A stretch of 39,868 bases of DNA from an uncultured Chitinophagaceae bacterium. Its GTDB lineage: Bacteria; Bacteroidota; Bacteroidia; Chitinophagales; Chitinophagaceae. The notes under the pieces were generated by a model. It was not told where the DNA came from. It searched no databases and saw only the letters and a list, made by a program, of their open reading frames with translations. The stretch covers positions 1-39,868 of the forward strand of contig CAISDV010000112.1 of the NCBI GenBank assembly GCA_903884185.1, read 5' to 3'. The first letter of the stretch is position 1; each line of letters opens with the position of its first letter. Both the position numbers and the translations under genes were made by a program. Positions 19,945 through 22,056 of this stretch are shown here, piece by piece.

Positions 19945-20865
19945 ATGTCACTGATCGTTGTAGGTTCCATGGCTTTTGATGCGATAGAAACCCCATTTGG
20001 CAAGAGCGATAAGATCGTTGGTGGCGCTGCCACATTTATTGCCTGGTGTGCAAGTAATTTTACACCTGTAAAACAAATTTCTGTTGTGGGTGGCGATTTT
20101 CCGCAGGAAGAACTGGAAGCACTTGCTGCACGCAAAGTATCATTGGAAGGAGTACAGATAAAAAAAGATGAAAAAACATTTTTCTGGAGTGGCCGTTACC
20201 ATATGGATATGAATACGCGCGATACACTGGAAACACAGTTGAATGTATTGGGTGATTTTAAGCCTGTGGTACCTGATAGCTACCAGGACTGCGAATTCCT
20301 GATGCTCGGTAACCTGGCGCCGTCTGTTCAGTTAAGTGTAATAGAACAGTTGAAGACAAAGCCAAAGCTGATCGTTTTGGATACGATGAACTTCTGGATG
20401 GAAGTGGCATTAGACGACCTGAAAAAAGTATTAGCGAAAATAGATGTGCTGATGATCAATGATAGCGAAGCAAGGCAACTGAGCGGTGATTATTCATTGG
20501 TGAAAGCGGCGGCTACTATTATGAAGATGGGGCCAAAATACCTTGTCATCAAGAAGGGAGAACATGGTGCATTATTATTCCATGGCAACCAGGTATTCTT
20601 TGCGCCGGCATTGCCATTGGAAGAAGTGTTTGACCCAACCGGTGCAGGCGACACATTTGCAGGAGGTTTTATCGGGCATATTGCCAAGACAAAAGATATT
20701 TCTTTCGAGAACATGAAAACTGCCATTATTGTTGGAAGCGCTATGGCAAGTTTTAGCGTGGAAAAATTTGGTACCCAGCGCCTGCGTGAGATCACAAGGG
20801 CAGATATTGATGCAAGGCTACAGGAGTTCGTTGCATTAGTGAATTTTGATATAGCGCTTGTATAA
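19945..20865 (+). CDS. PfkB-family carbohydrate/nucleoside kinase
   Basis: A 306-residue ribokinase-fold kinase. The N-terminal substrate motif GSMAFDAIETPFG and IVGGAATFIAWCAS, and the C-terminal signature DPTGAGDTFAGGF with catalytic D236, define the PfkB family. MINDSEARQLSG in the middle is typical of nucleoside and sugar kinases. The substrate is not evident. It is followed by a separate promoter and attenuator for asd, so it is probably not part of that operon. Confidence 0.85.
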   Translation: MSLIVVGSMAFDAIETPFGKSDKIVGGAATFIAWCASNFTPVKQISVVGGDFPQEELEALAARKVSLEGVQIKKDEKTFFWSGRYHMDMNTRDTLETQLNVLGDFKPVVPDSYQDCEFLMLGNLAPSVQLSVIEQLKTKPKLIVLDTMNFWMEVALDDLKKVLAKIDVLMINDSEARQLSGDYSLVKAAATIMKMGPKYLVIKKGEHGALLFHGNQVFFAPALPLEEVFDPTGAGDTFAGGFIGHIAKTKDISFENMKTAIIVGSAMASFSVEKFGTQRLREITRADIDARLQEFVALVNFDIALV

Positions 20866-20871
20866 ATAAAA

Positions 20872-20879
20872 TAATTTTG
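20872..20879 (+). promoter_or_regulatory. Putative -7 promoter box of the asd leader transcript
   Basis: TAATTTTG matches TAnnTTTG and begins seven bases after the stop codon of the kinase gene. Transcription would begin about 20885, 30 bases before the leader-peptide ATG. A TTG is present upstream (20846-20848) but at a wide 23-base spacing. Confidence 0.45.
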
Positions 20880-20914
20880 GTAACGATTCGATTACACAAT
20901 ATTTTTGCCACATC

Positions 20915-20977
20915 ATGAAACAAATAAAGCATACAAAGCGCATAAAGAAACCGGTCTCCGTTTGGGAAGGTGCTTAG
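20915..20977 (+). CDS. Lys-rich leader peptide of the asd attenuator
   Basis: A 20-residue ORF: ATG 20915, TAG 20975-20977. The first twelve residues, MKQIKHTKRIKK, hold five Lys codons, two Ile, one Thr and one Arg; the rest is PVSVWEGA. Asd makes the precursor of Lys, Thr, Met and Ile, so a Lys-rich leader ORF here fits control by charged tRNA-Lys. The end of the ORF contains the antiterminator arm (20960-20970). It is too short to be scored by composition, and the call rests on position, content and the RNA folding around it. Confidence 0.6.
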   Translation: MKQIKHTKRIKKPVSVWEGA

Positions 20978-21019
20978 CGTTTGGGTATGTGTAAACATAT
21001 ATCAGCAGCCTTCCTCAAC
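20960..21019 (+). promoter_or_regulatory. Antiterminator pairing of the asd attenuator
   Basis: GTTTGGGAAGG (20960-20970, end of the leader ORF) can pair with CCTTCCTCAAC (21009-21019) over 11 positions with one G-T wobble and one mismatch. The second arm includes most of the 5' arm of the terminator (21006-21014), so the two structures exclude each other. A ribosome at the leader stop codon would cover the first arm and allow termination; one stalled at the Lys codons would leave it free. Confidence 0.6.
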
Positions 21020-21034
21020 GGGAAGGCTGTTTTG
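21006..21034 (+). terminator. Attenuator terminator hairpin upstream of asd
   Basis: CAGCCTTCC (21006-21014) pairs perfectly with GGAAGGCTG (21021-21029), loop TCAACG, followed by TTTTG. It lies 29 bases after the leader stop and 32 before the asd start codon. The T-run is short, so termination may be partial, as expected for an attenuator. Confidence 0.7.
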
Positions 21035-21066
21035 TTATCATCATTTCATCACATAAAAAAAACAAA

Positions 21067-22056
21067 ATGAAAGTAGCAGTAGTGGGCGCCACAGGATTGG
21101 TAGGCACCAAAATGTTGCAGGTATTGGCTGAAAGGAGTTTTCCCGTAACGGAACTGGTGCCGGTTGCATCAGAAAGGTCTGTGGGCAAGGAAGTGGAATT
21201 CAAGGGAAAAAAATATAAAGTGGTAAGTATGAGTGATGGTATTGCAGCAAAGCCGGCCGTAGCGATCTTTTCTGCGGGTGGTGGTACTTCATTAGAGTGG
21301 GCGCCAAAATTTGCAGAGGCAGGTATCATAGTGATCGACAATTCAAGTGCATGGAGAATGGACCCTTCTAAAAAATTGGTGGTTCCTGAAGTGAATGCAT
21401 CAGTACTCACAAAAGAAGACCTCATTATCGCAAACCCCAACTGCTCTACTATACAAATGGTTGTTGCATTGCAGCCACTGCATACAAAATATAAGATCAA
21501 ACGTATAGTAGTAAGCACTTACCAAAGTGTAACAGGCACAGGAAAAAGCGCTGTTGATCAATTATTCAATGAAAGAAGGGGTGTGGAAGGAGAGATGGCT
21601 TATAAATACCAGATCGACCTGAACGTGATACCACAGATAGATGTGTTTACAGATAATGGCTACACAAAAGAAGAAATGAAAATGGTGAACGAAACAAGGA
21701 AGATCATGCAGGATGATTCTATCCGCGTAACGGCCACCACTGTTCGTATCCCGGTTGTGGGCGGACACAGCGAAAGCGTGAATGTTGAATTTGAAAATGA
21801 ATTTGACCTTGCCGAATTGAAACAGGTATTAAGCACTGCTCCTGGAGTGATCGTCCAGGATGATCCTTCCAAACAATTATATCCAATGCCATTATGGGCG
21901 CATGAAAAAGATGAAGTGTTTGTGGGAAGATTACGCAGGGATGAGACACAGCCAAAGACTTTGAATATGTGGATCGTGAGCGATAACCTTCGCAAAGGAG
22001 CTGCTACCAATGCAGTTCAAATAGCTGAGTATATGATGGGGAAGGGATTGTTATAG
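21067..22056 (+). CDS. asd: Aspartate-semialdehyde dehydrogenase
   Basis: A 329-residue enzyme that reduces aspartyl-4-phosphate to aspartate semialdehyde with NADPH, the branch point for Lys/diaminopimelate, Thr, Met and Ile. The NADP motif VVGATGLVGTKML opens the protein, the catalytic Cys is C126 in ANPNCSTIQM, and the catalytic His sits in VVGGHSESVNVEF. The length and the DNSSAWRMD and QSVTGTGKSAV blocks are standard. Upstream lie a leader peptide and terminator-antiterminator pair; downstream a terminator at 22081-22112 ends the transcript. Confidence 0.96.
   Translation: MKVAVVGATGLVGTKMLQVLAERSFPVTELVPVASERSVGKEVEFKGKKYKVVSMSDGIAAKPAVAIFSAGGGTSLEWAPKFAEAGIIVIDNSSAWRMDPSKKLVVPEVNASVLTKEDLIIANPNCSTIQMVVALQPLHTKYKIKRIVVSTYQSVTGTGKSAVDQLFNERRGVEGEMAYKYQIDLNVIPQIDVFTDNGYTKEEMKMVNETRKIMQDDSIRVTATTVRIPVVGGHSESVNVEFENEFDLAELKQVLSTAPGVIVQDDPSKQLYPMPLWAHEKDEVFVGRLRRDETQPKTLNMWIVSDNLRKGAATNAVQIAEYMMGKGLL

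Follow-up and report, generated by a model that had tools for sequence, protein, structure and literature searches.

In the 39,868-nt stretch of DNA analyzed here (the window), from an uncultured Chitinophagaceae bacterium, a kinase-like frame of 306 codons (PfkB-type by eye) ends at 20865, just 5' of a promoter-like stretch on the plus strand. This candidate promoter of the Bacteroidota type (20876-20907, +), recognized from its sequence, combines TTTG at -33 (20876-20879) with a -7 box, TATTTTTG, at 20900-20907, at a distance of 20 nt. It is followed on the same strand by a 20-codon ORF for a putative leader peptide, MKQIKHTKRIKKPVSVWEGA (20915-20977), with Lys at codons 2, 5, 8, 11, and 12. 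The end of the ORF contains the 5' arm of a candidate antiterminator (20960-20974, +, from duplex calculation), with the core GGGAAGG at 20964-20970. After a spacer (20978-21003, +) comes an intrinsic terminator hairpin (21004-21031, +), whose 5' arm (21004-21015) is common to the antiterminator. The list of open reading frames then places at 21067-22056 (+) a frame of 329 aa that we take to be asd, for aspartate-semialdehyde dehydrogenase, a name that rests on the first-pass annotation of this DNA and on general features of the family rather than on a search against family models.

The first-pass annotation had reported a -7-like box, an ORF with five Lys codons in its first twelve, and a perfect 9-bp hairpin at 21006-21029 with a T run, and all three were recovered at these positions. 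The terminator core pairs CAGCCTTCC (21006-21014) with GGAAGGCTG (21021-21029) in nine perfect pairs, with a short T run, TTTTGTTATC, 3' of this stem, and a hairpin scan lengthens the stem to 12 pairs (21004-21031). The pairing that had been proposed between 20960-20970 and 21009-21019 was borne out by eye, apart from a single T-C mismatch, and includes one G-T pair. The arm duplex calculated for the window lengthens this pairing on its other side and joins 20964-20974 to 21004-21015 at -16.1 kcal/mol. Terminator and antiterminator had been described as mutually exclusive, as their shared 5' arm bears out. When 20866-21066 was shuffled with dinucleotide content kept, a short ORF this rich in Lys (at least 5 Lys in 12 codons) arose by chance in 10/20000 shuffles, and such an ORF with TA..TTTG 5-10 nt ahead of it arose in 0/20000. 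The spacer between the leader stop and the terminator contains GTATGT...ACATA (alignment by eye), which is resembled in many relatives (alignments A1 and A2), and a small inner hairpin is possible there in folds. This stretch may be a pause site or an inner hairpin, and the simple model presented below does without it.

With asd as the query, 55 of the 59 relatives gave a match, and upstream DNA was read for 50 of these 55, comprising 34 genomes of the same family and 16 from other families of the order. We defined a leader as a short ORF that has at least three Lys among its first 18 residues and a terminator behind it. By this rule, a leader and terminator precede asd in 23 of the 34 family genomes and in 0 of the 16 genomes from the order's other families. 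The 11 asd-bearing family genomes without a leader by rule include one (L038) in which the upstream sequence is masked. Among the best 80 named asd loci, 15 carry a leader, 14 by rule and one (L055) by eye; the L055 leader has three Lys codons, just two of them within the first 13. These 15 carriers include two Flavihumibacter MAGs, Limnovirga soli, a Parafilimonas MAG, and four MAGs labelled Chitinophagaceae. No leader was found in the Pedobacter, Mucilaginibacter, Sphingobacterium, Flavobacterium, Polaribacter, Hymenobacter, and Spirosoma records among the same 80 loci.

The 38 leaders (23 family and 15 named) were used to build alignment A1 and a model, R1. Over the best 80 named loci, R1 recovered its own 15 and no further one, the next match being antisense (0.0066). 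At E ≤ 0.01, R1 has matches in 323 of the 394 family genomes, a count that includes weak matches such as that to the his leader of the window's own genome (4e-4); the family-genome matches listed run to E = 3.8e-14. The class-wide set of 395 genomes gave 31 matches at E ≤ 1e-5, 6 in the family itself and 25 outside it. Fourteen of these 25 were read, and 13 precede asd (families f41, f57, f61, and f48) and one precedes hisG (L303, f64). The Lys frame is intact in 12 of the 13 asd loci and broken in L301; the 13 are partly redundant, as the L295 leader equals that of L062, already part of the model, and L304 resembles L305. The location of these 13 outside-family loci before asd implies that the asd leader extends beyond the family. 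At L301, in an f41 genome, the frame is shifted ahead of most of the Lys codons in an otherwise preserved element, with poor arm pairing (-6.4); this locus is either a decaying copy or a sequence error.

Several other candidates were rejected. The Lys-rich ORFs before asd in the Flavobacteriaceae-type loci L104, L114, L120, and L128 (with terminator) look by eye like C-terminal ends of presumably MscL-like proteins, and those of the Polaribacter loci L112 and L117 look by eye like the end of what is presumably a membrane protein. The weak R1 match at L130 (E 0.046) was set aside as well, as its upstream sequence shows no leader.

An 8-codon core, K-x-[TI]-[KT]-x-x-K-[KT], is gap-free in 27 of the 38 leaders (26 distinct). 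For these 27, with the remaining 11 excluded because they differ in spacing or residues, mean pairwise pS in the core is 0.56 and pN is 0.14, which gives a pN/pS of 0.24, compared to 1.65 and 0.59 in the other two frames. As judged from these substitution patterns, the leader frame is under purifying selection. Codons 2-13 of the 38 leaders comprise 160 Lys, 81 Thr, 46 Ile, and 33 Met among 456 codons, or 70% compared to 32% expected from base composition, where the Lys enrichment is partly built in because leaders were picked by a rule demanding at least three Lys. Thr, Ile, and Met lie outside the selection rule and together make up 160 of the 456 codons (35% compared to 17.5% expected). Some internal Met codons might instead serve as start codons. 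All four of these amino acids are made through asd, and this codon content suggests that the leader perhaps reads Thr, Ile, and Met beside Lys, not Lys alone.

Both RNA pairings are marked by coordinated change among the leaders. Nine of the 10 consensus pairs of the terminator have changes on both sides in the 38 sequences, and the consensus fold of the 38 consists of the terminator pairs, with no other consensus pairs. This fold thus shows no protector hairpin (1:2) of the kind that, in four-segment attenuators of the trp/his/thr type, would free the terminator in the absence of a ribosome. In the 38 leaders, the duplex between each arm and its own terminator averages -16.6 kcal/mol compared to -14.2 kcal/mol for swapped partners, and 0/20000 permutations were as good. 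Over 74 distinct sequences, the corresponding means are -16.2 (own), -13.7 (swapped), and -7.8 kcal/mol (shuffled arms), again with 0/20000 permutations, in tests that ignore kinship, as do the Fisher tests below and the counts of coordinated changes. Of the 13 loci with CCTTTC terminators, 7 have a GAAAGG arm and the remaining 6 lack a fully matching one, and this arm occurs in 0 of the 61 other loci. Of the 4 loci with CTTCTC terminators, 3 have a GAGAAG arm, which occurs in 2 of the 70 other loci. At L054, arm and terminator are both changed, to GGGGC and GCCCC. Scored by column on alignment A2, antiterminator pairing gave standard pairs in 431 of 518 cells (83%), a figure compromised by sequences of the GGCCTTCC type, whose register is shifted by one base, and the ungapped duplex test is preferred for this reason.

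The arm also holds a regular position relative to the codons. It begins 6-15 nt past the last Lys codon in all 38 leaders and 12 nt past it in the window, in a search that began 4 nt past the codon, and the leader stop codon lies either before or after the arm, depending on the leader. This distance fits a ribosome that frees the arm when it waits on Lys and covers the arm when it is at the stop codon. When a ribosome is placed on the last Lys codon in equilibrium folding, 32 of the 38 leaders still have the terminator at P ≥ 0.5 and 6 of 38 switch, a result unfavorable to the model. The window terminator has P 0.94 in all three ribosome states, and without a ribosome the terminator forms anyway. 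Since equilibrium folding favors the terminator in most members, switching must be kinetic, and the model would need the antiterminator to form first and persist. As long as the terminator lacks its 3' arm, this segment of the window folds best into the antiterminator plus the inner hairpin, at -20.7 kcal/mol, compared to -19.4 kcal/mol for the terminator hairpin alone; in such folds, the leader arm is paired by eye with the terminator 5' arm in all 38 structures.

Promoters of Bacteroidota have a consensus of TTTG at -33 and a -7 box. In 34 of the 38 leaders, the ATG is preceded at 5-10 nt by a TA..TT[TC][GA] box, with the strict form TA..TTTG in 20. A box so placed stands ahead of 2 of the 130 start codons of asd and of 3 of the 348 other ATGs upstream. 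TTTG lies 15-24 nt upstream of the box in 32 of the 38, the controls covering the box alone. Shine-Dalgarno-like 4-mers (GGAG, GAGG, or AGGA), counted in the leaders alone, are present at -20 to -3 in 0 of 38. The placement of the ORF 5-10 nt behind a -7-like box implies that the leader is probably near-leaderless, with its start site predicted from the -7 box. If the start spacing matches that of other such promoters, the 5' UTR would be about 0-5 nt. In Bacteroides, 5' UTRs shorter than 10 nt amount to about 3.7%, as given in the accessible part of one study (PMC7366714).

Some strong R1 matches sit before dapA, the first gene of the lysine branch, with gene names here being presumptive assignments by sequence. 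Lys leaders, such as MQLIKKHTKRVKKHSVYREG and MNLIKKYSSKKNISEREDA, are present in 10 of the 55 dapA loci scanned (sets of 30 and 24, plus L167), a total that includes L198 and L249, where the scan was misplaced at contig ends. The residue preceding the last Lys pair of these leaders is Val in 7 and Ser in 3. Thr or Ile thus occupies this position in 0 of 10 dapA leaders, compared to 31 of 38 asd leaders (Fisher 3e-6), or in 0 of 8 compared to 31 of 38 when distinct peptides are counted (2.5e-5), and both tests overstate independence because the dapA leaders are related to one another. The dapA and asd leaders are alike in Lys (36% and 35%) and Ile (9% and 10%), whereas Thr (10% compared to 18%) and Met (1% compared to 7%) are lower in dapA leaders. 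The first Thr is kept in 9 of the 10 and an Ile in all of them, which implies that the dapA leaders are Lys-biased, not Lys-only. In the window's own genome, dapA (L185) has no leader and is preceded by a frame whose end resembles accA by eye. For hom-like loci, a scan for upstream ORFs preceded by a -7-like box covered 15 of 30 PF00742 matches (those with a short frame) and found no Lys/Thr-rich leader; the other 15, mostly thrA-type with starts beyond the flank, lay outside the scan.

By sequence, the asd leader is accompanied in these genomes by other leader-peptide-like units, and the numbers that follow are raw counts without a chance control. In the window's own genome, hisG (L274; G000:C113:15632-15750) is preceded by MKINTHIHHHFLPIG, and the ORF end pairs with its terminator at -10.3 kcal/mol. 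Among hisG loci L262-L291 (30 read of 34 matches), a short upstream ORF with at least three His is present in 28 of 30, some of them doubtful; these ORFs are of the HIHHHH type, with HHH in 25 of 30 and a -7-like box ahead in 19 of 30. An ORF with at least two Trp precedes trpE in all 13 loci scanned (L310-L322, from 20 PF04715 matches, the rest being weaker), and WWW occurs in 12 of 13. These ORFs are of the WWWHTNS type, with a -7-like box by rule in 3 of 13, and the own-genome trpE leader, MKQITNKYWWWHTNLDRGL, includes WWW. A Phe/Tyr-rich ORF (for example, RFYFYFFF) is found in 11 of 14 pheA loci (L330-L343), behind a -7-like box in 9; the own-genome pheA (L337) is without one.

A peptide with runs of Lys and Arg is basic, and the leader could act as an arrest or slow-down peptide, with the ribosome slowed by the nascent chain, either alone or on another signal, and not through uncharged tRNA. 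In favor of this reading, KHTKRTKK often retains residues from outside the pathway (His and Arg), and third-base variation is nearly absent from the CAT and ACA codons (24 of 27 for each). By contrast, Lys is kept whereas its neighbor in core position 5 varies, and the Thr or Ile that is usual before the last Lys pair at asd is absent at dapA. Moreover, an arrest peptide does not predict codons for the genes' own products in the leader-like ORFs before hisG, trpE, and pheA. We regard this explanation as quite improbable.

Elsewhere, genes of the lysine pathway are under lysine riboswitches or T-boxes. One such case, that of lysC1, is described in the literature (PMC12925634). The RNA might likewise bind lysine or another ligand directly, with the ORF incidental. 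In a scan of the window, every Rfam family, lysine riboswitch and T-box included, fell below its gathering score. The consensus pairs are those of the terminator only, and the codon frame is constrained; we give direct ligand binding very little credence. That the hairpin is a mere terminator of the upstream PfkB-like gene, where it would be ordinary so close behind the gene's end at 20865, and that the Lys-rich ORF is there by chance is hardly credible, given the promoter-like sequence that intervenes, the different upstream sequence of relatives (by eye), the purifying selection on the ORF and its fixed place behind a -7-like box, and its rarity in shuffles.

We consider it very probable that the asd unit is a ribosome-mediated transcription attenuator, as the first-pass annotation had proposed. 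That proposal gains support from the conserved Lys frame, the two-sided changes in the terminator, the fit of arms to their own terminators, and the Lys leaders before dapA, and the comparison of relatives, where loss of the ORF or of the pairings would have spoken against it, found both kept. On the other side stand the equilibrium folds, the 11 family genomes without a leader by rule, the six CCTTTC loci with unmatched arms, the broken and poorly pairing L301, and the few Lys codons of L055. The window has the parts that such an attenuator needs: a conserved short ORF between a promoter-like site and the gene, codons for products of the pathway, an intrinsic terminator before the gene (a feature that the leader rule itself required), and an exclusive antiterminator within reach of the ribosome. 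The ORF, its codons, the two pairings and their coevolution, the spacing, the promoter-like placement, and the conservation before asd are read from sequence, and from them we infer the start site, translation, stalling, the switch, and the identity of the sensed amino acids.

In the proposed attenuator, RNA polymerase would initiate a few bases 5' of the leader ATG, and translation would begin from a nearly leaderless 5' end. When charged Lys-tRNA (perhaps also Thr-, Ile-, or Met-tRNA) is scarce, the ribosome would wait at codons 2-12, with its front edge short of the GGGAAGG arm, and leave the arm free. The free arm would pair with the terminator 5' arm as it is made, and transcription would proceed into asd. 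When amino acids are plentiful, the ribosome would reach the stop codon and cover the arm, the terminator would fold, and transcription would end. Three RNA segments would suffice for this switch.

A broader reading, which we hold tentatively and would place somewhat short of probable, is that a leaderless-start attenuator senses Lys, Thr, Ile, and Met together, hence every end product beyond asd, that a more lysine-biased paralogue stands before dapA, and that both belong to a set of his, trp, phe, and lys leader-peptide attenuators that is a main form of amino-acid control in this part of Bacteroidota. The attenuator, in which Lys codons take the lead, would provide a testable circuit of amino-acid control in Bacteroidota. 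Should the RNA begin at the leader or close to it, the question also arises of how transcription-translation coupling works without a Shine-Dalgarno site. The pair formed by asd (Lys plus Thr, Ile, and Met) and the more Lys-biased dapA offers a ready test of how leader codons set what is sensed.

A limited search of the open literature (titles and abstract starts) agrees with the first-pass statement that no Lys leader of asd has been described in Bacteroidota: among the matches listed, none reported Lys leaders for asd or dapA, and none an amino-acid leader attenuator in this phylum. A comparative survey of attenuation by Lopatovskaya et al. from 2010 may contain Bacteroidetes cases. The lysine riboswitch (L-box) controls lysine-pathway genes by premature termination; there, the RNA itself senses lysine, and the window is without an Rfam match. 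Streptococcus mutans, which belongs to a different phylum, reportedly has an attenuator-like sequence before asd that would share the gene and a terminator-like hairpin in the leader.

The details of the thr operon leader (thrL) of Escherichia coli provide a general point of reference. Like thrL, the asd leader has codons for several end products before aspartate-pathway genes, and its terminator and antiterminator are exclusive. Unlike thrL, it is Lys-led with Thr, Ile, and Met, is probably near-leaderless and lacks a Shine-Dalgarno site, and would work with three segments. Attenuation of E. coli thrABC by Thr and Ile is stated in the accessible part of a recent source (PMC12925634). As of 2010, and before the Firmicutes case of that report, no leader-peptide attenuator was known outside Proteobacteria and Actinobacteria but the atypical ermC, according to the text available from it (PMC2965389). 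In the available part of another report, Lys codons appear only as a replacement for Arg (PMC6386406).

In Sinorhizobium meliloti, the SEP5 sORF has six Thr and three Lys codons, lies in the 5' UTR of a gene that its authors call aspartate dehydrogenase, is translated, and is proposed by them as a possible leader peptide, as described in the accessible text (PMC10117765). SEP5 is a precedent for a Thr/Lys leader in this pathway; as far as that text goes, it differs from the asd leader in that it belongs to Alphaproteobacteria, is conserved only in Sinorhizobium, and is Thr-led with its cluster near the 3' end, and the text mentions no terminator or antiterminator. The same text reports that the trpL (rnTrpL) attenuator RNA of S. 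meliloti begins with the AUG of the leader ORF (PMC10117765). By that account, trpL is a precedent for leaderless leaders, with Trp codons and in another phylum, whereas the start of the asd leader is predicted from the -7 box only. Single traits of the asd leader therefore have precedents, and what appears to be new is their combination: Lys-led codons with Thr, Ile, and Met, a probable near-leaderless start, three segments, and a new phylum.
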